Shown piece after piece: positions 39,092-63,520 of a DNA stretch of 64,000 nt. Within the stretch, counting starts at the first letter, position 1; every line of letters starts with the position of its first letter. The notes under the pieces were generated by a model. The model was not told the origin of the DNA and did not search any database. It saw only the letters and a list, made by a program, of their open reading frames with translations. This stretch comes from Meridianimaribacter flavus. Lineage in GTDB: Bacteria; Bacteroidota; Bacteroidia; Flavobacteriales; Flavobacteriaceae. Location of the stretch: the NCBI RefSeq assembly GCF_004366715.1, contig NZ_SOQZ01000005.1, positions 62,001-126,000 of the forward strand, in the 5' to 3' direction. The position numbers and the translations under genes were made by a program.

Positions 39092-39523
39092 ATGCCAAAA
39101 GAAAAACAATTAAGATACGATAAAGCTTATCTTAGAATAGCAAAAGAATGGGGAAAACTGTCACATTGCAAGCGTAAACAAGTAGGCGCTTTAATAGTAA
39201 AGGACAGAATGATAATTTCTGATGGTTATAATGGTACACCAACTGGTTTTGAAAATTACTGTGAGGATGATGAAGGCTACACAAAATGGTATGTATTACA
39301 TGCCGAAGCTAATGCTATTTTAAAAGTAGCAGCATCAACACAGTCTTGCAAAGGAGCAACACTTTACATTACGTTGTCACCATGCAAAGAGTGTAGTAAA
39401 CTTATTCATCAAGCAGGTATTGTTAGAGTAGTGTATAGTGCTGCATATAAAGATGATTCAGGTTTAAAGTTTTTAGAAAAAGCAGGAATTGAATTACAAT
39501 TAATAGAAGATGTAAAGGCATAA
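39092..39523 (+). CDS. dCMP deaminase family protein
   Basis: 143 residues of the zinc-dependent cytidine/deoxycytidylate deaminase fold: HAEANAIL (zinc His and catalytic Glu) and PCKECSKLI (two zinc Cys). Likely converts dCMP to dUMP for thymidylate synthesis. It ends with TAATG overlapping the start of the S41 protease gene by one base, which indicates translational coupling. Confidence 0.9.
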   Translation: MPKEKQLRYDKAYLRIAKEWGKLSHCKRKQVGALIVKDRMIISDGYNGTPTGFENYCEDDEGYTKWYVLHAEANAILKVAASTQSCKGATLYITLSPCKECSKLIHQAGIVRVVYSAAYKDDSGLKFLEKAGIELQLIEDVKA

Positions 39524-41121
39524 TGTCATTTCAAAAAAAATACATACCACTTATTATAGGTGTTGCTGTTGCAGCAGGTGTTTTTATTGGAGGTAAATTA
39601 AACTTTACAGATACTTCAGATAGATTATTTACATCAAACAGTAAAAAAGACAAACTCAATAGGTTGATAGATTATATTGATTATGAGTATGTTGACGAGG
39701 TAAATACCGATAGTATTGTTGATGTAACTGTAAATGGGATTTTAGACAATCTCGATCCACATTCTACTTATATTCCAAAAAGCGAATTACAACGTGTTAC
39801 CGAAAACATGAAAGGTGATTTTATTGGCATAGGTGTGAGTTTTTATACTTATAAAGACACTGTTACAGTAATAAGACCAACCGAAGGAGGTCCGAGTGAG
39901 AAAGCAGGAATAAAAGGTGGTGACCGAATTATTATGGCTGATGGCGATTCTATTTTTGGAAGAGAATGGAGTAATGAAGCTATTATTGAAAAACTTAAAG
40001 GCGAGAAAAACACTAAAGTTCATTTAAAAGTTTTAAGAAAAGGAGAGGACGAACTTCTAGATTTTACTGTAAAACGAACCGATATTCCTATTAAAAGTGT
40101 TGATGCTGCTTATATGCTTACCAACAAATTGGGTTATATAAAAATCAATCGTTTTGCAGAGTCCACTTACAAAGAATTTAAAAAAGCATTAGATAAACTA
40201 CAAAATCAAGGAGCAACCCAATTGGCATTAGATTTAAGAGATAATCCAGGAGGTTTTCTTGGAGTTGCTGAACAAATTATAGATGAGTTTTTAGAAGACG
40301 ATAAACTGATTTTATTTACTAAAAACAAATCGGGAAAAATTGAGAAAAGCTACGCTACGCGAAGAGGCGATTTTGAAGAAGGCGAAGTCTATATTCTTAT
40401 TAATGAAAACTCAGCCTCAGCAAGCGAGATAGTTGCAGGTGCTTTACAAGATAATGACAAAGGAACCATTGTTGGTCGTCGTTCTTATGGAAAAGGACTG
40501 GTACAACGCGAAATGGCTTTAGGAGATGGTAGTGCTGTGCGCTTAACGGTTTCAAGGTATTATACACCTACAGGTCGTTCAATACAGCGACCATATCATA
40601 ATGGTAGTAGTGACGATTACTATAACGATTATTACAAGCGTTTAAGTAGTGGAGAGTTGAGTGAACAAGAAAATATAAAGGTTGCTGATTCTTTAAAATT
40701 TACAACACCTAACGGAAAAGTGGTATATGGTGGAGGTGGCATTATTCCTGATATTTTTGTGCCACTAGATACTAGTATTCAAAACGAAACTTTAAACTAC
40801 ATAAGACGTAGAGGTTACATAAGTAATTTTGTGTTTGAAGAATTAGATAGAGATCGAAGTGTCTATGAAAAAGTCACTAGAGACGATTTTATAAAGAATT
40901 TTGAAGTAAGTGATGACATTGTTATAAAGTTTCAGGATTATCTAAACCTAAAAGAGCGTACTAAAATCACATTTGTGGCGTATCATGATGCTATGAAGCA
41001 ACTGATAAAAGCAGACTTAGCAGACCAATTATATGGTGGTAATGCTAGTGAGCAAATTATAAATGAAAAAGACGAAATGATTTTAGAAGTGATTAAGCTT
41101 AGTGAAGATGAAAACTTCTAA
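39523..41121 (+). CDS. S41 carboxyl-terminal processing protease
   Basis: 532 residues. N-terminal membrane anchor (about 5-24), a PDZ domain (about 90-165; GIGVSFYTYKDTVTVI, GGPSEKAGIKGGDRI) and the S41 protease core with the catalytic Ser in NENSASASEIVAGAL and Lys in RRSYGKGLVQ. The C-terminal 130 residues are an extension found in Bacteroidota members. It acts in the periplasm on protein C-termini. The last 4 bases overlap the convergent FAD oxidoreductase gene. Confidence 0.93.
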   Translation: MSFQKKYIPLIIGVAVAAGVFIGGKLNFTDTSDRLFTSNSKKDKLNRLIDYIDYEYVDEVNTDSIVDVTVNGILDNLDPHSTYIPKSELQRVTENMKGDFIGIGVSFYTYKDTVTVIRPTEGGPSEKAGIKGGDRIIMADGDSIFGREWSNEAIIEKLKGEKNTKVHLKVLRKGEDELLDFTVKRTDIPIKSVDAAYMLTNKLGYIKINRFAESTYKEFKKALDKLQNQGATQLALDLRDNPGGFLGVAEQIIDEFLEDDKLILFTKNKSGKIEKSYATRRGDFEEGEVYILINENSASASEIVAGALQDNDKGTIVGRRSYGKGLVQREMALGDGSAVRLTVSRYYTPTGRSIQRPYHNGSSDDYYNDYYKRLSSGELSEQENIKVADSLKFTTPNGKVVYGGGGIIPDIFVPLDTSIQNETLNYIRRRGYISNFVFEELDRDRSVYEKVTRDDFIKNFEVSDDIVIKFQDYLNLKERTKITFVAYHDAMKQLIKADLADQLYGGNASEQIINEKDEMILEVIKLSEDENF

Positions 41122-46926: not shown

Positions 46927-49227
46927 CTACTCTTCTTCAGACGATTTAGATTTGTTTTTGTCTACAGCTATAGTTGCAGGTACAACGGTATCGTCATAAG
47001 CCTGATAATACTCTTCTAGTAAATTCATAGTAGCTGTAAGCAAATCTTTAGTTTCTAATAGAATGCTGAAATAAAGTGTCGTGTTTTTAGGACTCGATTC
47101 TTCAGTTCGAGTACGCTCCACTTGCTTTTGAATTTTTTGGGTGAGCGTATCAAAAATCACTTTTTTATTGTTAAGCACTTTGCCAATTTCTTCAAAAGTT
47201 TCGGAGTCAAATGAAGTTTTTGTATCATCAAATAAACGTTGAATTAGGTCATCAACCTCTTTAAGTTCCTTTATTTGACTAAACTTAAGCTTTTTGTGAT
47301 TGTTGTTAATGTGTTTGTGGCTTACCTTAGAAATGTATTCTAAAGATTGCGCCATATCTTGCAAGTAGCTTAAAATATTGATGTAGAAATTACTCGCATT
47401 AACACTTGGGTCTTCAAGATTTTTAATAAAATAGAAGATGTTATCTCTTAAATCTTCAATCTCAGAAGATAGTTTTTCAATATTCTTTTTATTCTTTTTA
47501 AGTGCGTTTAAGTTTTGAGTAGCTAATCCATTAATTGCACCAGAATATATTTTATTTCCTCTTTTAATAACGTTTGAAATGTTACCAGCACTTTCAACGA
47601 TAACGCCTTGTAGCGAGCTGCTTTCAGCTTTGTTTAAACTATCAGTTTCTTTAATTGATAAAGATTTTTTTCTGTGATTTAAATAGTTTTTTACAAGAAG
47701 AATTATGGCAATAGTTAATAATGCAGATAACGCATAACCTTTTCCGTAAAATAATATTACAGCCATAATAGCAGCAGCAGTAAAAGCGCACAAAGCAGTT
47801 AAGAACCAACCACCAATAACATTTAAAACTCCAGCAACTCTGTAAACAGCACTTTCACTTCCCCAAGCTCTATCAGCTAATGATGTACCCATTGCAACCA
47901 TAAATGTTACATAAGTAGTTGATAAAGGTAATTTCATAGATGTTGCTATAGAAATAAGTACACTAGCAACCATAAGGTTTACTGATGCTCTTACAAGGTC
48001 AAAAGCTGGTGCATCTTCTTTAGATGAGGTATAAGAAAGTACAGGTTTAACAAACTGTTTTTCAATTTTTTCTTTAGCAGAAGCAGAAAGAAGACTATTG
48101 AAGCTACTAGATATAGCAATACTTCCTCTAACGATACTACGCGATAAAAAGTTTGGTTCAAAACGCTCTTTTACATCATCTTGACGAGATAAATCTACTG
48201 ATGTTTTTACAACAGCCTTTGCCTTACTAGAAAACCATAAGGTAAGCACCATTACTAATCCAGCAATAAGTAAAAGGTAAGGTTCAGTTTTAACCTTTTC
48301 AGCTAAAGAGCCCATGCTAAATTCAGTAGGCAAAATACCACTAGCAGACCATTTATTGAAAGAGTCAAAAGCAGCAATAGGAACACCAATAAAGTTTACA
48401 AGGTCGTTACCTGCAAAAGCCATAGCTAACGCAAAAGTTCCTATGATGATAATCATTTTGTAAATATTGGTTTTAAATGCAGAGATAACAACCATTGATA
48501 TTAAAGACCAAGCAATAAGGTTGATGCCTAAAAAAGCAAGAGTGTTTTCTTGTACTAAGTCTAAAAAGTTACCACTCATAAATGTTGCACTTTTTAAACC
48601 TTTTATTATTATGAAATAAAGTATTGAAGTTACTGCAAATCCACTAAATACAGCTCCATACCAACTTGGTTTAGATTCGAATTTAAACGACAATAAAATT
48701 CTTGATATAAACTGGATTAGTGCACCAACACTAAATGCTATAACTACTGATAGTAGAATACCTAATATAATTTCAATAGCTTTCTCGTTATTGATATATG
48801 TCCCAAGATCTAGAATGCTTTGAGTGTCATCAGCATTTATTTTAAGTAAAGCCACACAAACCGAAGCTCCTAATAATTCAAATACAATAGATACAGTAGT
48901 TGAAGTAGGTAACCCAAGTGTATTAAAGAAATCTAGCAAAAGAATATCTGTAATCATTACAGCCATAAAAATGACCATGATTTCATCAAACATAAATTGC
49001 CCAGGATTAAAGATACCCTTTCTTGCAACTTCCATCATTCCGCTAGATGATAACGCTCCAAGAGCAACACCAAGACTAGCGACTATCATTATAGTTTTAA
49101 ACGTAATTGCTTTAGAACCTATAGCAGAGTTTAAAAAGTTAACAGCATCATTACTAACACCAACTACAAGGTCAGCTATTGCTAAAAAAGCTAAAGCGAC
49201 CAACATGTAGATATAAATATTTTCCAT
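46927..49227 (-). CDS. PiT inorganic phosphate transporter with PhoU-like tail
   Basis: 766 residues. The N-terminal part (about 1-530) is the inner-membrane PiT domain: the two signature repeats are GVSNDAVNFLNSAIGSKA (about 23-40) and FAGNDLVNFIGVPIAAFDSF (about 272-291). The C-terminal 225 residues (about 540-766) are soluble, helical and charged and look like a PhoU/DUF47-type domain fused to the transporter. It probably imports phosphate with H+ or Na+ as counter-ion. Two 11-bp spaced Pho-box-like words lie 54-71 bases upstream of the start. Confidence 0.92.
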   Translation of the reverse strand: MENIYIYMLVALAFLAIADLVVGVSNDAVNFLNSAIGSKAITFKTIMIVASLGVALGALSSSGMMEVARKGIFNPGQFMFDEIMVIFMAVMITDILLLDFFNTLGLPTSTTVSIVFELLGASVCVALLKINADDTQSILDLGTYINNEKAIEIILGILLSVVIAFSVGALIQFISRILLSFKFESKPSWYGAVFSGFAVTSILYFIIIKGLKSATFMSGNFLDLVQENTLAFLGINLIAWSLISMVVISAFKTNIYKMIIIIGTFALAMAFAGNDLVNFIGVPIAAFDSFNKWSASGILPTEFSMGSLAEKVKTEPYLLLIAGLVMVLTLWFSSKAKAVVKTSVDLSRQDDVKERFEPNFLSRSIVRGSIAISSSFNSLLSASAKEKIEKQFVKPVLSYTSSKEDAPAFDLVRASVNLMVASVLISIATSMKLPLSTTYVTFMVAMGTSLADRAWGSESAVYRVAGVLNVIGGWFLTALCAFTAAAIMAVILFYGKGYALSALLTIAIILLVKNYLNHRKKSLSIKETDSLNKAESSSLQGVIVESAGNISNVIKRGNKIYSGAINGLATQNLNALKKNKKNIEKLSSEIEDLRDNIFYFIKNLEDPSVNASNFYINILSYLQDMAQSLEYISKVSHKHINNNHKKLKFSQIKELKEVDDLIQRLFDDTKTSFDSETFEEIGKVLNNKKVIFDTLTQKIQKQVERTRTEESSPKNTTLYFSILLETKDLLTATMNLLEEYYQAYDDTVVPATIAVDKNKSKSSEEE

Positions 49228-49280
49228 TAAGAAAGAGTCAAAATTTAATTAGCAAATTTCTTGTTTTAAATTGAACGAAA

Positions 49281-49298
49281 TGTTACCAAAATGTTATG
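49281..49298. promoter_or_regulatory. Pho-box-like direct repeat upstream of the PiT gene
   Basis: TGTTACC AAAA TGTTATG is a direct repeat of 7-base words spaced by 4 bases, an 11-bp period as in PhoB and PhoP boxes. On the PiT coding strand it reads ATAACA-TTTTG-GTAACA, close to the TTAACA-N5 form of B. subtilis PhoP sites. It lies 54 bases before the PiT start. Confidence 0.5.
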
Positions 49299-49429
49299 TT
49301 CTTTTTAACTAACATATATTATAGAAGTAGGTTAGCTATTGTTTTTATTATGAAATGTGAACTTTCAATGTTAAATTTTTATTTTTTTAAAAAATTAAAC
49401 AATTGTAAATCAGCTAATTATAATTTCAA

Positions 49430-49480
49430 TGTTAATTTAATGTTACGTAAGTGTTACCAAAATGTTTTAAAATTGTAAAT
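49430..49480 (+). promoter_or_regulatory. Five-unit 11-bp array upstream of the MORN-repeat gene
   Basis: The words TGTTA (49430), TGTTA (49441), TGTTA (49452), TGTTT (49463) and TGTAA (49474) recur at exactly 11-bp steps. The array ends 7 bases before a -7 box (TATATTTG, 49488-49495), the position expected for an activator that replaces the upstream promoter element. Confidence 0.55.
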
Positions 49481-49487
49481 ATATCTT

Positions 49488-49495
49488 TATATTTG
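49488..49495 (+). promoter_or_regulatory. -7 box of the MORN-repeat gene
   Basis: TATATTTG matches TAnnTTTG and gives a leader of about 27 bases before the ATG at 49528. There is no clear -33 TTG; the 11-bp array occupies that position. Confidence 0.55.
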
Positions 49496-49527
49496 TTACA
49501 TAATCATTAATTAAAACCCAAAGTAAC

Positions 49528-49878
49528 ATGAAAAATATAGTATTAGTTGTATTGATGTTGGTGTCTAGTTTAAGTTTTGCTCAGGTAGATGCTAAGGTAG
49601 AAAAAAAAGGAGATTTAACTATGGTTACTTATTATCATGATAATGGTAATGTTGAACAAGAAGGAACTTTTAATGCTAAGGGTGAATTGCATGGTGTTTG
49701 GACAAGTTACGATTTAAAAGGTAATAAAGTTGCTGTTGGTAATTATAACAATGGTCAAAAATCTGGTAAATGGTTTTTTTGGGTAGATGATACACTAAAA
49801 GAAGTAGACTACAAAGATTCTAAAATTGCTAGTGTACAAGAGTGGAAACAATCTACTGATGTAGCTATAAGAAATTAA
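49528..49878 (+). CDS. exported MORN-repeat (YwqK-like) protein
   Basis: 116 residues. A signal peptide (about 1-18; LVSSLSFAQ) leads to at least three MORN-like units: YYHDNGNVEQEGTFNAKGE, VWTSYDLKGNKVAVGNYNNG and KSGKWFFWVDDTLKEVDY. Such proteins are often labelled antitoxin YwqK by database transfer, but nothing here supports a toxin-antitoxin role. It stands between the PiT transporter and the TonB-dependent receptor, under an array of 11-bp repeats. Function unknown. Confidence 0.8.
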   Translation: MKNIVLVVLMLVSSLSFAQVDAKVEKKGDLTMVTYYHDNGNVEQEGTFNAKGELHGVWTSYDLKGNKVAVGNYNNGQKSGKWFFWVDDTLKEVDYKDSKIASVQEWKQSTDVAIRN

Positions 49879-49901
49879 GTTTATCCTTATTAAATTAAAG
49901 C

Positions 49902-49934
49902 AAAAAGGCACTCTGAAAAGAGTGCCCTTTTTTA
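49902..49934. terminator. Bidirectional terminator
   Basis: AAAAAGGCACTCT pairs with AGAGTGCC and a following T run around a GAAA loop. It ends the MORN-repeat transcript and lies just beyond the stop of the convergent receptor gene. Confidence 0.85.
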
Positions 49935-49953
49935 TTTTATAAAACTAATTTGA

Positions 49954-52791
49954 TTAAAATTTAAAGCTATAACCTAAAGAAAATTCAATTCCTGGATCTC
50001 TTAATGAGAATATTTGATCATCTGCTCTAAAAGATTCTGATAAGCTTTCTTTCTTATCGTTTAATAGGTTGCTTATTTTTAATTCTATAGAAGAGTTTTT
50101 GGTCTCTCCAAAAGCTTTGTTTAATGTAAAGTTTAAACTGTTAAAAGGCTGTGTGTAAACATCAGGAACAATTCCTGTTCCAACAACCTCAAGTGTTTTA
50201 CCTTGTACATTATAAAATAATCCCGTTTGTAAACCAATGTCTTCGTTGTTATAGTCTAAACCAATATTTAATAAAAATGGTGATTGTCCTTGTAGGTCAC
50301 GCTCTCTATCTATTGATTCTCCTTCTCTTGCAGCAAGTACTCTACGGTTGTATTCTTGCTGAGACATTTCAAGTTTTGAACTTATTACAGATACGTTAGC
50401 ATTGAATTTAAGGTCATTTAAACTTTCTAAAATAAAGCCTAATCGTTGTCTAAATTCAAACTCACCACCTATTACAGTAGCATTACCTAAATTAGCAGGT
50501 GTTAATTGGTTTGCTGCTGATTCGAAAAATGTAATTTCGATAGGGTCTTTAAAGTCTTTATAAAAACCACTTATTGCAAACATTTGACCTGAATCTCCAT
50601 AACGCTCATATCTTAAATCAAAGTTGTTGATGTAAGAAGGAACCAAGTCTAAATCACCAATAAACAGTCTGTTAGTAATTGGGTCATAGATTTGTGAGTT
50701 TGATTGTTCCTTAAATGATGGTCTAGCTGTAGTACGATAGTAAGAAGCTCTTAAATTTACATTGTCATTTAAAGAATAAATTAAGTTTGCTGATGGGAAA
50801 AAGTCAAACTTATCTTGAACTTCTTCTCTTTCATAAACAATGTCTTCTTGAGTATCTGCACCAGTATAATAAGCTTTAAAATACTCAGTTCTTAAACCTA
50901 AAACGGTTTTGAATTTCTCAGTAATGTTAAACTCATTAGAAATGTAAGTTGAAGCAATGTTATGTTCACCTTCATAAGCGTTATCTGGATTAAACGTATC
51001 ACCAAAGGTAATATGAGTTCCGCTATCAGAGTCAGGTGTCCAAATGTTTTGTGTAGCTAATAAGTTATCTACATTTCCGTTTTCAATAAATGAATCGTCT
51101 CCAGTTATTTGAAAAGTGAATGCATCAATACTAAAATCTCTAAACTTATATACATAGCTACCACCAAACTTTAATTGCGCAGGACTATTAAAAAGGTTGT
51201 ATTTTTTCTTTAAGTCAATTTTACCAACCCAGTTTTCTTCTTGAAGCCATCTCCAAATTCTTATTGGGTATGTAGCAGTACTAGGACTAATAACAAATGT
51301 GTTATTGTCTGAAGGTCTCAATGGTGTAATACGATGATCTTTGTCGTACACTTTAGAAAAGGTAGGAGAAAGTTTCCAATCTAAATTCCATGCATTTTCG
51401 TCATTGCTAAATCTATGACTACCACTAAGCAAAAAGTTAGTTACAGAACGCTCAGTATAAGTAAGTGCATTTTTATAGATAGGAGCTTGAGCTCCACCAG
51501 TTCCATCTTCAGAGATCTCTTGGTTATATACACCTGCAGTTGATTCACCATTTTGAATATGTAGTGCATTAAATTTGTACTTTGACTTTTTAGTCTTAAG
51601 AGATACACCGGCAAGTCCATTTAAAATAATATTGTTAATACCTTCAGATCCTCTTGAGCTTAATGTGCTGTTAAGTTGGTATTCAGATGGGTCACCATTT
51701 TGTCTTATCCAAGCTCCATCTATTCTTTCTTCATAAAATGTTGTTTCATTTTTGTAAGAAAAAGAGGTTTGGTAACCTAGTTTCATATCATTACCTAAAT
51801 CATACTGATCACCAAGTGTAAAACCTAAGTCAAAATTCATTCCGCTATTTTCTTGCTTAGCGGCTAATTCTTTATTGAATTTATCTGTTAAAGAAGTCAA
51901 TAACAATCTGTTTTCAAAAGTACCAGGTATAGGTTGGTATCTGTTTATTGGAAGATTTCTTGTGCCATCGTCATAACCAAAAAAATCAGTATCACTACCA
52001 GTATATGTCAAGTATTTGTCATTAAAGTGCATATCAGGATTGTATCCCATACCTAGAGAAATTGAAGACTCAAATTTATTTGGGAAATCTTTTGTGATAA
52101 TATCAACTACACCACCTGTAAAATCAGCAGGATACTCAGCAGAAGCAGACTTTAAAACTATTACATTATCAAGTATACTTGTTGGGAATAAATCCATTTG
52201 AATTGTGTTTCTGTCTGGATCTAAACCAGGAATATCAACACCATTTAAAATAGATTTGGTATAACGGTCTCCAAGACCTCTAACATACACATATTTTCCA
52301 CCTTGAATAGAAACACCAGGTACACTTTTTACTGCCGTAGCTACTGAACTTGCTCCACTACTTTTAATGGATTGAGCAGAAAGACCATCTAATAAAGTCA
52401 CAGACTTTTTTTGCATGTTCAATACTGCATTTTCAGTATTTCTTTTTACTGTTGTGGTTACTACAACGGTTTCAAGTGAGTTTGTACTTAAGGTAACATC
52501 AATTACAGTAATTTCGTTAGACTTGATAACAATTTCACTTATTTCTTGAGTGTCATAACCAACAAAAGAAAATATTAAAGTATAAGTTCCAGGTTCTAAT
52601 TCTAATTCATATTTTCCATCAAAGTCTGAAGTTGTACCAGTAGTAGTGCCTTTTACAAGTATGTTTGCAAAAGCCATTGGTTCAACAAACTCACCATCCA
52701 TTACTGTTCCGGCAACTTTACCCTTTTGAGCATAAGAAAAAGAAACTGCAAGAAAGAAAAAGAAAATAAATGTAGATATATTTTTTTTCAT
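49954..52791 (-). CDS. TonB-dependent outer-membrane receptor
   Basis: 945 residues from the ATG at 52791 (MKKNISTFIFFFFLAVSFSY, signal peptide); an in-frame upstream codon is not a credible start. The N-terminal CarboxypepD_reg-like domain (about 24-108) is followed by the plug domain (VKSVPGVSIQGGKYVYVRGL, about 152-171) and a beta barrel to the C-terminal aromatic end (GYSFKF). No SusD-like gene is adjacent; instead it lies 93 bases after a beta-helix lipoprotein gene. Substrate uncertain; Pho-box-like repeats before the lipoprotein gene suggest a phosphorus compound. Confidence 0.92.
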   Translation of the reverse strand: MKKNISTFIFFFFLAVSFSYAQKGKVAGTVMDGEFVEPMAFANILVKGTTTGTTSDFDGKYELELEPGTYTLIFSFVGYDTQEISEIVIKSNEITVIDVTLSTNSLETVVVTTTVKRNTENAVLNMQKKSVTLLDGLSAQSIKSSGASSVATAVKSVPGVSIQGGKYVYVRGLGDRYTKSILNGVDIPGLDPDRNTIQMDLFPTSILDNVIVLKSASAEYPADFTGGVVDIITKDFPNKFESSISLGMGYNPDMHFNDKYLTYTGSDTDFFGYDDGTRNLPINRYQPIPGTFENRLLLTSLTDKFNKELAAKQENSGMNFDLGFTLGDQYDLGNDMKLGYQTSFSYKNETTFYEERIDGAWIRQNGDPSEYQLNSTLSSRGSEGINNIILNGLAGVSLKTKKSKYKFNALHIQNGESTAGVYNQEISEDGTGGAQAPIYKNALTYTERSVTNFLLSGSHRFSNDENAWNLDWKLSPTFSKVYDKDHRITPLRPSDNNTFVISPSTATYPIRIWRWLQEENWVGKIDLKKKYNLFNSPAQLKFGGSYVYKFRDFSIDAFTFQITGDDSFIENGNVDNLLATQNIWTPDSDSGTHITFGDTFNPDNAYEGEHNIASTYISNEFNITEKFKTVLGLRTEYFKAYYTGADTQEDIVYEREEVQDKFDFFPSANLIYSLNDNVNLRASYYRTTARPSFKEQSNSQIYDPITNRLFIGDLDLVPSYINNFDLRYERYGDSGQMFAISGFYKDFKDPIEITFFESAANQLTPANLGNATVIGGEFEFRQRLGFILESLNDLKFNANVSVISSKLEMSQQEYNRRVLAAREGESIDRERDLQGQSPFLLNIGLDYNNEDIGLQTGLFYNVQGKTLEVVGTGIVPDVYTQPFNSLNFTLNKAFGETKNSSIELKISNLLNDKKESLSESFRADDQIFSLRDPGIEFSLGYSFKF

Positions 52792-52807
52792 AATAAATAT
52801 TCTATAA

Positions 52808-52848
52808 ACAATTGTCCACCCTATTTTAGTGGACAATTGTTTTTTTTA
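52808..52848. terminator. Hairpin between lipoprotein and receptor genes
   Basis: ACAATTGTCCAC (52808-52819) pairs perfectly with GTGGACAATTGT (52829-52840). The T run lies on the plus strand, where no gene ends. For the minus-strand mRNA it is an intercistronic hairpin with only a weak U tract, better suited to partial termination or protection of the upstream lipoprotein message. Confidence 0.6.
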
Positions 52849-52884
52849 AGGGAGTTAAAACGTTGTCTAGATTAATGTCTAGAT

Positions 52885-54156
52885 TTATTGCAAAGCACCA
52901 GAAGCGCTAGCATAAGTCCAGTCAAAGTCTGATAAATCAGCTCCAACTGTTTGAGATCCTAGAGTTACAGCAGTAGCTTCAGATCCAAAACCTGTTACTG
53001 TTACAGTTTCAGCTTTATTTACAAAGATGTCTTCTACGTTAGCAACACCTGTAGGTAAAACAATTTCCCAGTTGCTAAAAGTTACTAAACCATCGTTGTA
53101 ATTAGTTGCAACACCATCGTTGTCTAATTCAACATCTGACTCAGCTTTAAATCCGTAAGCAAGAATATTGTTTGTAGCTCCCATTGCATTACTTCTATAG
53201 TCAGCATACTCACCATCAGCAGTTACAGTGTTACCAATAATAGTTGCGTTTTGTAAAGTAAAAGAACCTGTTAAAGAACCTTCAGGACCATCAATTTCAA
53301 ATGCGTGGTCAGAAGCTTCCCCTAATACTACAACAGCGTTATCAATAGTACCAGAGTAAGCTTGATCAATATCTAAAGCGTCATCTCCTTGTCCCCAAAC
53401 TAATAAGTTAGAAGCGTTAACTGAACCACCAAAGAATTCAATACCGTCGTCTACGTTAGCAACAACTTCAATATTGCTAATAAGAGTTCCAGTTCCAACA
53501 CCACCTAGAGTTAAACCGTTAATTTCGTTACCTTCTCCAATTAAAGCTCCACCATGACGAATAGAAATATATTGTAATACACCAGAGTTGTCAGCAGCAT
53601 CAGAACCACCATAAAGACCAAATGTGTCATCAGCAGGAATACCTTCTATTTGAGCTTCAGTAATATCTCCAGAGAAAGAACATGGAGCATAACCCATAAC
53701 TAATAATCCTCCCCAAAGACCTCTATCGTTTACATCTAGGTTAGTACCAGCAGTTTCTCCACAAGTAATGTTATCACTTGTAGAAGTAAAGATAATTGGC
53801 TGAGAAGCAGTCCCTACAGCGTTTATTTTAGCACCTCTAGCAATAATTAATGCAGAAGCTAATGAACCAGTTCCTGGAGAACCTTTAATTATTGTACCTG
53901 GTTGGATAGTTAAAGTAGCACCATTGTCTACCACTACTTTTTGGTTTAAAACATAAATGTTGTCGCTAGACCAAGTTGTGTCTGAAGTAATTGCTCCTGT
54001 TACAGAAACAGTAGGACAAATATCTCCTCCACCATCTCCACCACCTTGATTGATGATTGTAGTTTCCTCAATAATAATAGGAGTATCGTCATCTTTAAAA
54101 CAGCCAGTAAATACTAATGATAGCATTGTTAATACGGCTAAAGTTAATTTTCTCAT
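52885..54156 (-). CDS. surface lipoprotein with right-handed beta-helix fold
   Basis: 423 residues. A lipoprotein signal (LVFTGCFKDDD; lipidated Cys19) is followed by acidic residues, as in surface-exposed Bacteroidota lipoproteins. The body is rich in Gly, Asn, Thr and Val with regular beta-strand spacing (ATLTIQPGTIIKG, ISNIEVVANVDDGIEFFGGS, QNATIIGNTVT), typical of a parallel beta helix. Such proteins are sometimes mislabelled as multidrug transporters. It is transcribed just before the TonB-dependent receptor, in the position where a SusD partner would stand. A six-unit 11-bp array lies upstream. Confidence 0.82.
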   Translation of the reverse strand: MRKLTLAVLTMLSLVFTGCFKDDDTPIIIEETTIINQGGGDGGGDICPTVSVTGAITSDTTWSSDNIYVLNQKVVVDNGATLTIQPGTIIKGSPGTGSLASALIIARGAKINAVGTASQPIIFTSTSDNITCGETAGTNLDVNDRGLWGGLLVMGYAPCSFSGDITEAQIEGIPADDTFGLYGGSDAADNSGVLQYISIRHGGALIGEGNEINGLTLGGVGTGTLISNIEVVANVDDGIEFFGGSVNASNLLVWGQGDDALDIDQAYSGTIDNAVVVLGEASDHAFEIDGPEGSLTGSFTLQNATIIGNTVTADGEYADYRSNAMGATNNILAYGFKAESDVELDNDGVATNYNDGLVTFSNWEIVLPTGVANVEDIFVNKAETVTVTGFGSEATAVTLGSQTVGADLSDFDWTYASASGALQ

Positions 54157-54217
54157 TTTACTTTTTTTTAAAATAGTTTTGTTATATTAAATCGATGCTG
54201 CAAAGAAACTGTTGAAC

Positions 54218-54277
54218 TGTAAAGACAAGGTTAATCAGAAGTTAAACATTGGTAATAAAAAAGTTATTTAAATGTTA
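54218..54277. promoter_or_regulatory. Six-unit 11-bp array upstream of the lipoprotein gene
   Basis: Words at exact 11-bp steps on the plus strand: TGTAA (54218), GGTTA (54229), AGTTA (54240), GGTAA (54251), AGTTA (54262) and TGTTA (54273). On the lipoprotein coding strand these read as TAACA/TAACT/TTACC words, resembling PhoP boxes of the TTAACA-N5 type. The array lies 62-121 bases upstream of the lipoprotein start and 80 bases before the divergent dGTPase gene. Confidence 0.55.
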
Positions 54278-54357
54278 CCAAACCTTGATTTTTTGAGTTT
54301 CTCTAAACATTAAATTAACATTGAATTAGCTATCTTGCGAGCACTTAATATTTTGTT

Positions 54358-55701
54358 ATGAATTGGGAACAATTACTCTCTTTAAAACGATTTGGTGATA
54401 CTAATAAAAGGCTAAGAAAGGAGCAGGATGAGACTAGATTAGGGTTTGAGGTTGATTATGATAGGGTTATATTTTCTTCGGAGTTTAGAAGTCTTCAAGA
54501 CAAAACTCAAGTTATTCCACTTTCTAAAACCGATTTTGTTCATACTCGTTTAACGCACAGTTTAGAGGTAAGTGTCGTGGGTAGGTCTTTAGGTAGAAAG
54601 GCAGGACAAAGGTTAATAGAGAAGCATCCTTATTTACAAAATATTCATGGTTATCAAGCAAATGATTTTGGAGCTATTGTTGCCGCAGCTGCTTTAGCGC
54701 ATGATATTGGTAATCCGCCTTTTGGACATTCTGGAGAAAAAAGTATAGGTGAGTTTTTTAAAACAGGAAAAGGTGTAAAGTTTAAAGATAAACTTACGCA
54801 AAAAGAGTATCAAGATTTATGCGACTTTGAAGGAAATGCCAATGGCTTTAAAATATTAACCGAGAGTAGACCAGGTAGAGAAGGAGGTTTAAGGTTGAGC
54901 TATGCTACCTTAGGTGCTTTTATAAAGTACCCTAAAGAGTCATTGCCTAAAAAGCCAACAACTCATATTGCTGATAAAAAATATGGCTTTTTTCAAAGTG
55001 AAAAATCAGTGTTTTTAGATGTTGTTAAAGAACTAGGTCTTGTAAAGCGTAGTAATGATAATGATATTAGTTTTAGTAGACATCCACTAACTTACTTGGT
55101 TGAAGCCGCTGATGATATTTGCTACACTATTATTGATTTTGAAGATGGTATCAATCTTGGGTTAATACAAGAAGAATATGCGCTTGAGTATCTTATTAAT
55201 CTTGTTAGAGGCTCAATTAATACTTCAAAATATCACGAATTAACGACCACACAAGATAGGGTTAGTTATTTAAGAGCTTTAGCTATTAATACGTTAATTA
55301 ACGAAGCTGTTGAATTATTTATTGAAAATGAAGGAGCTATTTTAGATGGAACATTTTCCAAAGCTTTATTGGATTTGAGTAAATACAAAGCCCAGATAAA
55401 GGATATTATTCAAATCAGCATTTCAAATGTTTACCAGTCTGAAGAGGTAATTGATAAAGAGATTTCTGGTTATGAAGTTTTAAATCAGTTACTGAACGTA
55501 TATACTGATGCAGTCGACAATAAATTGAATAATTCACTTTCTAGTTTTAATAGTTTAGTTTTAAAATCATTACCAAAAACTGTTAATTTGAATGATGATA
55601 ATCTTTACAGTTGCCTAATGGCTGTATGTAATTATATTTCAAAACTTTCTGACAGTAATGCAATTTTAACCTATAGAAAACTTAAAGGTAATCACCTATA
55701 A
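54358..55701 (+). CDS. dgt: dGTP triphosphohydrolase
   Basis: Removes triphosphate from dGTP (and possibly other dNTPs). 447 residues with the HD-domain metal site: His in TRLTHSLEVSVVGRSLG and the His-Asp pair in ALAHDIGNPPFGHSGE. Start MNWEQLLSLKRFGDTNKR is typical of the family. Its region upstream is shared with the divergent lipoprotein gene and contains the 11-bp array, but whether that array affects dgt is unknown. Confidence 0.94.
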   Translation: MNWEQLLSLKRFGDTNKRLRKEQDETRLGFEVDYDRVIFSSEFRSLQDKTQVIPLSKTDFVHTRLTHSLEVSVVGRSLGRKAGQRLIEKHPYLQNIHGYQANDFGAIVAAAALAHDIGNPPFGHSGEKSIGEFFKTGKGVKFKDKLTQKEYQDLCDFEGNANGFKILTESRPGREGGLRLSYATLGAFIKYPKESLPKKPTTHIADKKYGFFQSEKSVFLDVVKELGLVKRSNDNDISFSRHPLTYLVEAADDICYTIIDFEDGINLGLIQEEYALEYLINLVRGSINTSKYHELTTTQDRVSYLRALAINTLINEAVELFIENEGAILDGTFSKALLDLSKYKAQIKDIIQISISNVYQSEEVIDKEISGYEVLNQLLNVYTDAVDNKLNNSLSSFNSLVLKSLPKTVNLNDDNLYSCLMAVCNYISKLSDSNAILTYRKLKGNHL

Positions 55702-61765: not shown

Positions 61766-63520
61766 TTATGATTTTAAATTGAGTTTTAAATTGAGTTCTG
61801 TGAGTTGCTCTTCATCAATAGGAGCAGGAGCATCTATCATAACATCTCGACCAGAATTGTTTTTTGGGAATGCAATAAAATCTCTAATGGTTTCTTGACC
61901 TCCAAGAATAGCCACTAGTCTATCTAGTCCAAAAGCTAAACCACCATGAGGAGGAGCTCCATATTCAAAGGCATTCATAAGGAAACCAAACTGCGCTTTT
62001 GCTTCTTCTTCGGTAAACCCTAAATAGTCAAACATTAAGGCTTGTGTTTTTTTATCATGAATTCTTATAGAACCACCACCAATTTCGTTTCCGTTTAACA
62101 CTAAATCATAAGCGTTTGCTTTAACAGCTCCAGGGTTGGTTTCTAAAAGTTCCAATTGTCCTGGTTTTGGAGAAGTAAATGGATGATGCATTGCATGGTA
62201 ACGCTCTGTGTCTTCATCCCATTCTAATAATGGAAAATCCATTACCCAAAGTGGTGCAAATTCATTTGGTTTTCTTAATCCTAAACGTTCAGCAAGCTCC
62301 ATACGTAAAGCACTTAACTGTGTTCTTACTTTATTTGTGTCACCAGATAGCACACAAATTAAATCTCCTGCTTTAGCTCCAGTTACTTCAGCCCATTTAG
62401 CTAAATCGTCTTGGTCATAAAACTTATCCACTGAAGATTTGAAAGTACCATCATCATTACAACGACAATACACCATTCCTAAAGCGCCAACTTGCGGTCG
62501 CTTTACCCAGTCAATAAGTTTGTCTATCTCTTTTCTTGTGTAACTGTTTCCTCCAGGAACAGCGATTCCTACTACTAATTCAGCGTTGTTAAAAACACCA
62601 AAGTCTTTATGTTGTGCTACTTCGTTAAGTTCTCCAAACTCCATTCCAAAACGAATGTCTGGTTTGTCGTTTCCATACAAGCGCATAGCATCGTCATAAA
62701 GCATTCTTGGGAATTCTTGAATATCAACTCCATTTACTTCTTTAAGTAAATGACGTGTTAAACCTTCAAAAGCGTTTAAGATATCTTCTTGCTCTACAAA
62801 CGCCATTTCACAGTCTATTTGTGTAAACTCAGGTTGTCTGTCGGCACGTAAATCTTCATCTCTAAAGCATTTTACAATTTGAAAATACTTATCCATTCCA
62901 CCAACCATAAGCAATTGCTTAAAAGTTTGAGGTGACTGCGGAAGCGCATAAAATTGACCTTCGTTCATACGAGAAGGTACCACAAAATCGCGAGCTCCTT
63001 CAGGAGTAGACTTAATTAAATACGGAGTTTCTACTTCTATAAAACCTTCTTTTGATAAATAGTTGCGAACTTCTTGAGTAACTTTATGTCTGAATATCAA
63101 ACTGTTTTTTACTGGATTACGACGAATATCTAAGTAACGATACTTCATACGTAACTCTTCACCTCCATCTGTATCATCTTCAATAGTAAAAGGCGGTAAT
63201 TTGGCAGAGTTTAAAATGGTTAATTTGCTTACCAATATTTCAACGTCGCCTGTAAGTATGTTAGGGTTTTTAGAAGCACGTTCAATAACAGTTCCTGTAA
63301 CTTGAATGACAAACTCACGACCTAGCTTTTGAGCTTGTTCCATCATGGTTTTAGAAGTGCGTTCTTCATCAAAAATAAGTTGTGTAATACCATAACGGTC
63401 GCGTAAGTCTACCCAAACCATAAAGCCTTTATCACGAACTTTTTGAACCCAACCTGAAAGTGTTACTTCTGTATTAATATGTGATGCTCTTAACTCACCA
63501 CAGTTATGACTTCTATACAT
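61766..63520 (-). CDS. aspS: aspartyl-tRNA synthetase
   Basis: Charges tRNA-Asp. 584 residues from the ATG at 63520 ([15 protein letters not shown]). OB-fold anticodon domain (about 1-110), class II core with motif 2 [20 protein letters not shown] and motif 3 [15 protein letters not shown], and the bacterial GAD insertion (about 290-420). Length is normal for the bacterial type. A -7 box lies 19 bases upstream. Confidence 0.97.

Follow-up and report, generated by a model that had tools for sequence, protein, structure and literature searches.

A 64-kb stretch of the genome of Meridianimaribacter flavus, a member of the Flavobacteriaceae (positions 62,001 to 126,000 of contig NZ_SOQZ01000005.1; hereafter the window), contains at its positions 46,927 to 54,277 the genes for a PiT-family phosphate transporter (PiT), a small MORN-like protein (MORN), a TonB-dependent receptor (TBDT) and a beta-helix lipoprotein (LIPO). 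An initial annotation, made from the DNA letters alone, had read these genes as a co-regulated system for phosphorus uptake. By comparing the locus with those of other bacteria, we find that tandem repeats at an 11-bp step lie in its three promoters, are conserved among relatives, and also occur upstream of phoB and of other phosphate genes. These sequence comparisons strongly support PhoB-type co-regulation and a phosphate role. We think it probable that this is a PhoB-controlled phosphate-starvation (Pho) locus, in which LIPO and TBDT capture phosphorus and PiT imports phosphate.

Genes and promoters of the locus

The window genome (G000) comprises 3.2 Mb in 14 contigs and is 99.99% complete. 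The locus contains the following features, with coordinates counted in the window:

46927..49227, minus strand: PiT-family phosphate transporter (PF01384, 103.9 bits), the only PHO4-family gene found in the genome
46930..47655, minus strand: PhoU-fold C-terminal domain of the PiT protein, from a weak Pfam match, an AlphaFold2 (AF2) model and Foldseek
49253..49260, minus strand: -7-like element GAAATTTG of the PiT promoter
49264..49296, minus strand: PiT promoter array, TAACATTttgg-TAACATTtcgt and a degenerate third unit, 11-bp step
49428..49478, plus strand: MORN promoter array, TGTTA at 49430, 49441 and 49452, TGTTT at 49463 and TGTAA at 49474, 11-bp step
49488..49495, plus strand: -7 element TATATTTG of the MORN promoter, 14 bp past the start of the last unit
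49528..49878, plus strand: small exported MORN-like protein of 116 amino acids (aa), with a marginal MORN_2 match
49954..52791, minus strand: TBDT with a CarboxypepD_reg-like N-terminal domain, ATG start chosen
52885..54156, minus strand: LIPO, with the lipobox FTGC and then FKDDD, from motif, AF2 model and conserved residues
54201..54208, minus strand: -7-like element TTTCTTTG of the LIPO-TBDT promoter
54212..54277, minus strand: LIPO promoter array, six T(A/T)AC words at exact 11-bp steps (54277, 54266, 54255, 54244, 54233, 54222)
54305..54326, plus strand: distal pair AAACATTaaatTAACATT in the intergenic region common to LIPO and dgt, seen by eye in many relatives

The identities that the initial annotation gave these genes hold up: to the PiT score can be added the CarbopepD_reg_2, Plug and barrel domains of the TBDT and the lipobox of LIPO, the MORN_2 match being marginal (27.6 bits against a Pfam cut-off of 29.6). 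For the TBDT, the ATG at 52791 (MKKNISTFIFFFF) is more likely to be the start than the TTG at 52836. The next gene past LIPO is dgt (dGTPase-like), on the plus strand at 54358, and a box pair stands ~30 bp ahead of it.

We compared this block with 80 named loci of close relatives (L061-L140), the nearest of which, by lipoprotein, belong to Winogradskyella, Psychroserpens and their neighbours. Judged by sequence matches, the block of PiT, MORN, TBDT and LIPO is conserved among them: LIPO adjoins TBDT in 79/80 loci, with MORN present in 71/80 and PiT in 67/80. The stored DNA of many loci without MORN or PiT stops early, but L123 and L129 (21 kb) have neither gene. Of the 67 loci with MORN and PiT, 39 carry a porin O/P-type gene between the two (for example, L061:14500-16260), and in the other 28 no such gene was found there; the homologue of this porin in L172 matches Porin_O_P. 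In the window, no porin lies between MORN and PiT, and the genome has one Porin_O_P match elsewhere. Some 6 kb from PiT, at 39523-41121 of the window, is an S41-type peptidase gene (named by eye). The PUSIII cluster of Flavobacterium johnsoniae is also described with an S41 peptidase (PMC8115612), possibly by coincidence.

Tandem 11-bp repeats and the candidate regulator

The initial annotation had noted GTTA-type words at exact 11-bp steps before PiT, MORN and the LIPO-TBDT unit. To score them, we used a matrix learned from 667 units of relatives (59 MORN, 68 PiT and 59 LIPO promoters), with the window left out. Over both strands of the 64 kb, the nine top three-unit sites all lie within these three promoters, and eight of the nine score above 16.6, the maximum for the other steps between 8 and 14, which was reached at step 13. 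The final unit of each array in the window (a degenerate one in the case of PiT) begins 14 bp before the -7 element. The arrays are therefore real, being step-specific in the matrix scan and conserved in relatives.

Upstream of MORN, relatives carry AATGTTAnnnn repeats, usually four, up to a TAnnTTTG element, the distance from the first unit to this element usually being 47 bp (40/52). The MORN promoter of the window has one exact extra 11-bp unit relative to most (58 versus 47 bp). Upstream of PiT, TAACATTnnnnTAACATT is retained, and upstream of LIPO there are again six T(A/T)AC-like words at 11-bp steps. We called a box wherever the two-unit score reached at least 12 at step 11, a threshold that we set ourselves, and for the comparison with control genes we left out genes with <80 bp of upstream intergenic DNA, so that 32/67 PiT, 69/71 MORN and 78/80 LIPO loci were testable. 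Boxes were found at 78/78 LIPO, 68/69 MORN and 31/32 PiT genes, compared with 4/209 other genes and 1/43 dxs genes. The intergenic region common with LIPO gives dgt 65/72, and TBDT itself, which follows LIPO, has 0/26. At other steps, at most 20/69 reached the threshold (MORN, step 14), as did at most 10/209 of the other genes (step 13). On the question of frequency that the initial annotation had raised, such arrays are thus not equally common before other genes.

The spacing of the arrays is also constrained. In promoters where a first unit and a -7-like element could both be located, the two are spaced at 3 mod 11 bp in 77/80 LIPO, 57/61 PiT and 42/52 MORN promoters, after 16 MORN and 7 PiT promoters that failed the pattern match had been left out. 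Such a register would be required by an activator that overlaps the -33 region.

As the matrix was trained on these same promoter classes and the threshold was our own, we give more weight to held-out promoters, namely those of phoB, of distant TBDT-LIPO units and of other Pho genes. With the window genome included and two duplicate genomes (L178, L194) left out, phoB promoters scored at least 12 in 22 of 23 genomes, with a median of 15.9 at step 11 versus 5.2-7.4 at other steps; in two of the 23 (L198 and L200), phoB and LIPO have a common intergenic region. Compared with dinucleotide shuffles, 20 of 28 distant TBDT-LIPO units have a box at p<0.05, as do 19/23 of the TBDT-first units that remain once five LIPO-first genomes (G034, G030, G011, G006, G008) are excluded post hoc. 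The initial annotation had proposed a test for enrichment of such arrays before pho genes. Because the window genome has no recognised phoX or pstS, these promoters were examined in relatives, where such enrichment is borne out for phoB and for porin O/P (14.8-21.0 in 8/8: L171-L174, L207, L208, L213, L215) and only in part for pstS, with a box in 1/3 (16.5 in L173), and phoX, with a box in 1/2 (16.6 in L164). A genome-wide scan, which it had also proposed, found six sites that mismatch at no more than one position, of which three lie in this locus and one before phoB-phoR. A one-mismatch four-unit array lies at G000:C1:10205-10241 (L141), between lipoprotein-like and sufS-like genes (names by eye), and a single word-scan match lies at C9:50638.

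The array upstream of phoB led us to a response regulator-kinase pair at C1:481149. The best NCBIfam models for the regulator are PhoB TIGR02154 (223 bits, cut-off 296.2) and NF053854 (219.4 bits, cut-off 270), and those for the kinase are PnpS/PhoR, below their curated cut-offs. A gene for a GT28-type glycosyltransferase follows the pair, and the phoBR region of F. johnsoniae is likewise reported to have a pf04101 gene (PMC8115612).

The arrays could instead belong to another, perhaps ArcA-like, member of the OmpR family, their link to phosphate being incidental. Direct repeats at about 10-11 bp are a feature of several OmpR-family regulators, and the window genome contains 24 matches to the phoB query. 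The most conserved letters of the motif reported for PhoP of the flavobacterial duck pathogen Riemerella anatipestifer by DNA affinity purification sequencing (DAP-seq), TTTAACA, are also said to resemble ArcA (PMC9603813, PMC5399024). Such a regulator would have to account for the boxes before phoB in nearly every genome, before porin O/P genes and before one pstS; five other OmpR-family genes score 1.3-6.5, although these are weak controls because at least four of them are preceded by DNA that reads as a kinase gene. We regard this explanation as very improbable and favour a PhoB-type regulator. R. anatipestifer PhoP itself fits such a regulator, as a flavobacterial Pho-type protein with a TAAC core motif that is reported to bind its own promoter in electrophoretic mobility shift assays (EMSA; PMC9603813, PMC5399024), the likeness being one of motif alone.

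Gene neighbourhoods, phosphate importers and the lipoprotein fold

More distant genomes provide a link to phosphate that is independent of the boxes and comes from gene neighbourhoods. Among 40 sampled genomes, the window genome included, 31 have a LIPO match, and contexts were examined for 29 (without the window genome and G024), genes being labelled by tblastn matches of at least 45 bits to reference proteins, with an additional NCBIfam scan for the regulators of L168 and L175 alone. TBDT adjoins LIPO in 28/29 contexts, and phoBR, PiT, porin O/P or pst lies in the stretch in 23/29; one more (G034) has a doubtful regulator only. The window pair has ~27-34% identity with the type typically found next to phoBR or porin in distant genomes. 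Gene orders include TBDT-LIPO-porin-pstS-pstC-pstA-pstB (L173), PiT-porin-LIPO-TBDT-phoB-phoR-GT28 (L207) and GT28-phoR-phoB-TBDT-LIPO (L222). An Alteromonas macleodii plasmid reads phoB-phoR-phosphate substrate-binding protein-2OG oxygenase-LIPO-TBDT-DUF3450-ExbB-ExbB-ExbD-TonB; its TBDT is 28% identical over 861 aa, and its LIPO, of 1356 aa, has three modules by motif (L234). In a Pseudoalteromonas record (L236), the pair lies beside ExbB/ExbD/TonB, with no pho genes in the stretch. In Indioceanicola, the order is LIPO-TBDT-gspN/D/E/F/G, the LIPO being 35% identical over 234 aa (E 3e-33). As the pair stands beside phosphate genes in so many other bacteria, it is probably a means of capturing scarce phosphorus.

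Tandem LIPO modules, two or three per protein, occur in several relatives (L234, L237 and two-module frames of 647-825 aa). The window genome also encodes a second beta-helix paralogue (L165:7542-8846, on G000:C4), of 434 aa and ~32-35% identical, among large secreted-type proteins; the 16-kb stretch around it has no TBDT match. Frames of 436-449 aa like this paralogue occur in several relatives.

The phosphate importers of the window genome are few. The genome has one PiT (two match segments in a single frame), and its C-terminal tail, which the initial annotation had called PhoU-like, scores below the Pfam cut-off (E 0.0072, 17.1 bits against 23.5). The call is borne out by structure prediction: the AF2 model of the tail has a pLDDT (predicted local distance difference test score) of 85.9, and of the first 17 Foldseek rows all but one bear the title PhoU or PhoU-like, the exception being a 'hypothetical protein' (1sum); these 17 rows have TM-scores to the target of 0.55-0.79, with three rows at E<=0.001. 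A PHO4 domain and a predicted PhoU fold are thus both present in one protein. A search for PstS in 11 handles, representing 10 distinct genomes with that of the window among them, gave only five weak matches, which begin like LysR regulators, and we found in the window genome no phoX, no pstS, no Na/Pi-cotransporter (Pi, inorganic phosphate) and no separate PhoU by family score. PiT with its PhoU-fold tail is therefore the only Pi importer and the only PhoU fold recognised in this genome.

That LIPO is a beta-helix lipoprotein, as first annotated, is borne out by its predicted structure and its lipobox. The AF2 model is a right-handed beta-helix (pLDDT 90.4), and the 50 matches listed by structural comparison, mostly right-handed beta-helix proteins, have Z-scores of 19.2-22.4 at 6-16% identity. 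We collected 110 homologues, and a lipobox-like motif is present in 100 of the 100 that are complete (350-520 aa). Two adjacent acidic residues come right after the lipobox in 91 of these 100, and such residues resemble the flavobacterial surface-export signal. We infer that LIPO is exposed at the cell surface. Across 48 sequences, with identities as low as 28%, ten residues never vary (D236, D237, E240, F242, G243, G244, D258, D259, D262 and E287), and position 321 is R or K in all 48. The members of the pairs D236/D258, D237/D259 and E240/D262 are each 22 residues apart, a spacing that would fit successive coils of the beta-helix.

The main rival to a capturing role is an enzymatic one. LIPO would then be a surface enzyme, or the helper of one, releasing phosphate or phosphorylated sugars from polymers, or it would switch on a phosphatase, a role that has been proposed for the Caulobacter lipoprotein ElpS; TBDT would import the product. 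The fold is common to polygalacturonases, lyases and epimerases; the invariant D236/D237, D258/D259, D262 and E287 could form an active site with R/K321; and the F. johnsoniae lipoproteins FI-FIII were modelled on a polygalacturonase (PMC8115612). Overexpression of ElpS is reported to raise alkaline phosphatase in the supernatant, and yet refolded and immunoprecipitated ElpS had no phosphatase activity (PMC2996285). LIPO itself has no Pfam or NCBIfam match at E<=0.001, no credible solved relative by sequence searches of structures and no Foldseek row at E<=0.001, and structural matches at such low identity give the fold only. The adjoining Pi importers and porins need no hydrolase, for which no search was made in the 29 contexts. 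We claim no enzyme family for LIPO, because Foldseek was empty at this cut-off and the structural matches span many different beta-helix families; a polygalacturonase-like reading of the acidic residues is retained only as part of this rival. Overall, we consider an enzymatic role unlikely.

A different cargo has also to be weighed: the pair might belong to the Pho regulon because it brings in a cation required by Pho enzymes, such as Ca, Fe or Zn. The invariant acidic cluster would suit a metal, metal chelates are a classical cargo of TBDTs, and alkaline phosphatases are themselves metalloenzymes. The presence of PiT, porin O/P, pst or phoBR beside the pair in 23-24 of the 29 contexts speaks for phosphorus instead, and we hold the cation explanation to be improbable. 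Most likely, by analogy with known pairs, LIPO captures a phosphorus ligand, perhaps via a metal, and transfers it to TBDT in the manner of BtuG or XusB. The neighbouring Pi importers and porins would favour Pi or a Pi complex as the substrate; the authors of the F. johnsoniae study prefer organic phosphorus (PMC8115612).

A proposed phosphorus pathway and known systems

We propose the following sequence of events for the locus. At low phosphate, a response regulator of the PhoB type, whose gene lies with that of a PhoR-like kinase in another part of the genome, would be activated and would bind the tandem 11-bp repeats (TAACATTnnnn; on the other strand, AATGTTAnnnn) that overlap the -33 region of the three promoters, switching these on from positions in helical register with the -7 element. 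Of the three, one would then serve LIPO and TBDT, another the MORN protein and the third the PiT-PhoU transporter. LIPO, as a surface-anchored beta-helix, would act as a lid, capturing phosphate, metal-phosphate or a phosphorylated compound and handing it to the TonB-energised TBDT, after which PiT would take phosphate through the inner membrane. The PhoU domain of PiT probably gates the transporter or reports its state. Thus, the part of the initial annotation that concerned co-regulation and phosphate stands by comparison (conserved promoter footprints, phoB and porin boxes, and the 23 contexts), and a phosphorus cargo for LIPO and TBDT is suggested by the conservation of the pair and by published analogues.

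A more specific version of this proposal, which we offer tentatively and consider rather unlikely, is that a bacterium without Pst, Na/Pi-cotransporter or separate PhoU runs an energised phosphate pathway across both membranes, from a lid with an acidic (metal) site, through a TonB-driven TBDT, to a PiT-PhoU protein that both imports and reports to PhoR. If so, the outer-membrane step for phosphate would be active and specific, rather than passive via porins, and Pi would be sensed via PiT and not Pst.

Several observations weigh against a PhoB-controlled capture system. On the side of regulation, the regulator scores below both PhoB model cut-offs, and the box before phoB in the window genome is among the weaker ones (n2 12.2; reached by 2/60 shuffles). 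The MORN array is oriented opposite to those of LIPO and PiT, the window genome's own porin O/P gene, elsewhere in the genome, has no strong box, and boxes are missing from four TBDT-first genomes (G009, G016, G025, G035), from two of the three pstS genes (0.5 in L208, behind a boxed porin, and 6.6 in L217) and from the phoX of L163 (4.1). Plain word counts over the genome gave 44 matches versus 24 for the reversed control, and 17 versus 9 in a second scan; we dropped them as proof because this enrichment is weak. R. anatipestifer PhoP/PhoR differs in that deletion of the pair is reported to have raised pstS 8-fold (PMC9603813, PMC5399024).

On the side of function, the acidic site of LIPO is not an obvious anion site. 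Five of the 29 contexts have no pho gene (G010, at a contig end; G013; G016; G035; and G029, a weak match with no TBDT), a Marinobacter record shows no TBDT and no pho gene, and one from Bacteroides shows a TBDT without a pho gene. A Na/Pi-cotransporter gene does occur in the relatives G006 and G008, a few kb or less from PiT (G008:C85:12303-13055 and G006:C23:136834-137520). The F. johnsoniae study reports that OprP was not induced (PMC8115612). In Caulobacter, cc0171, which encodes the TonB receptor CC_0171, is described as constitutive by reverse-transcription PCR, and deletion of elpS as leaving supernatant alkaline phosphatase unchanged (PMC2996285).

In the literature surveyed, mostly titles and abstracts, with preprints and most subscription journals outside it, we recognised no account of a flavobacterial PhoB box with 11-bp repeats or of a structure of the pair. 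The kind of system is itself already in print. In F. johnsoniae, TBDTs and the lipoproteins FI-FIII are reported to be induced at low Pi (7.7-14.5 in the fold-change column of Table 1, presumably log2), TBDT Fjoh_0545 and FII Fjoh_0546 lying beside phoBR and FI Fjoh_3856 beside TBDT Fjoh_3857; FI is the most abundant exoprotein of phosphate-starved cells (18.7%), and FI-FIII are 31-36% identical to the Caulobacter lipoprotein (PMC8115612). These PUSIV and PUSIII loci resemble ours in pairing a TBDT with a lipoprotein, FII being annotated IPR011050, the pectin-lyase fold superfamily. The pairs are Pi-induced there, and the order glycosyltransferase-PhoR-PhoB-TBDT-lipoprotein that the published locus tags give, with OprP between glycosyltransferase and PhoR, matches GT28-PhoR-PhoB-TBDT-LIPO in L222. 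In contrast, the window pair is LIPO-first, with MORN and PiT beside it and phoBR elsewhere, and is known to be alike by description, not by sequence. An interaction between Caulobacter ElpS (CC_0170) and CC_0171 was proposed in 2010 (PMC2996285), and PhoB-controlled TBDTs have been reported in Caulobacter. There, too, a lipoprotein induced at low Pi adjoins a TBDT, and the Indioceanicola LIPO-TBDT-gsp block resembles the elpS arrangement (PMC2996285); the window block has no type II secretion system, and ElpS is likened by description, not by sequence.

The SusCD and PusCD systems likewise combine a TBDT with a surface lipoprotein, PusCD being Pi-induced (PMC8115612). The initial annotation had LIPO standing in for SusD. 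LIPO lacks a SusD-family match at the Pfam and NCBIfam cut-off given above, and its model is a beta-helix. TBDT, for its part, matches SusC TIGR04056 with 61.5 bits over residues 40-192 only, below the cut-off of 368.25 and short of a full-length SusC match. The stand-in role itself is suggested by the conservation of the pair and by analogues, the BtuB-BtuG and XusA-XusB pairs of Bacteroides. The lipoprotein folds of BtuG and XusB differ from that of LIPO. In each pair, a surface lipoprotein beside a TBDT is reported to bind a small molecule and hand it on, the ligands being B12 and ferric siderophores (PMC10404256, PMC13142918), so lipoprotein lids other than SusD are known. What the present comparison adds, none of it met with in the literature surveyed, is the linkage to the sole recognised Pi importer, the promoter rule, the linkage across phyla and the invariant acidic site. 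The box consensus can be used to map Pho regulons across marine Bacteroidota, and the conserved coupling of receptor, lipoprotein and importer, together with a readable promoter rule, opens the job of FI-type lipoproteins to direct tests.

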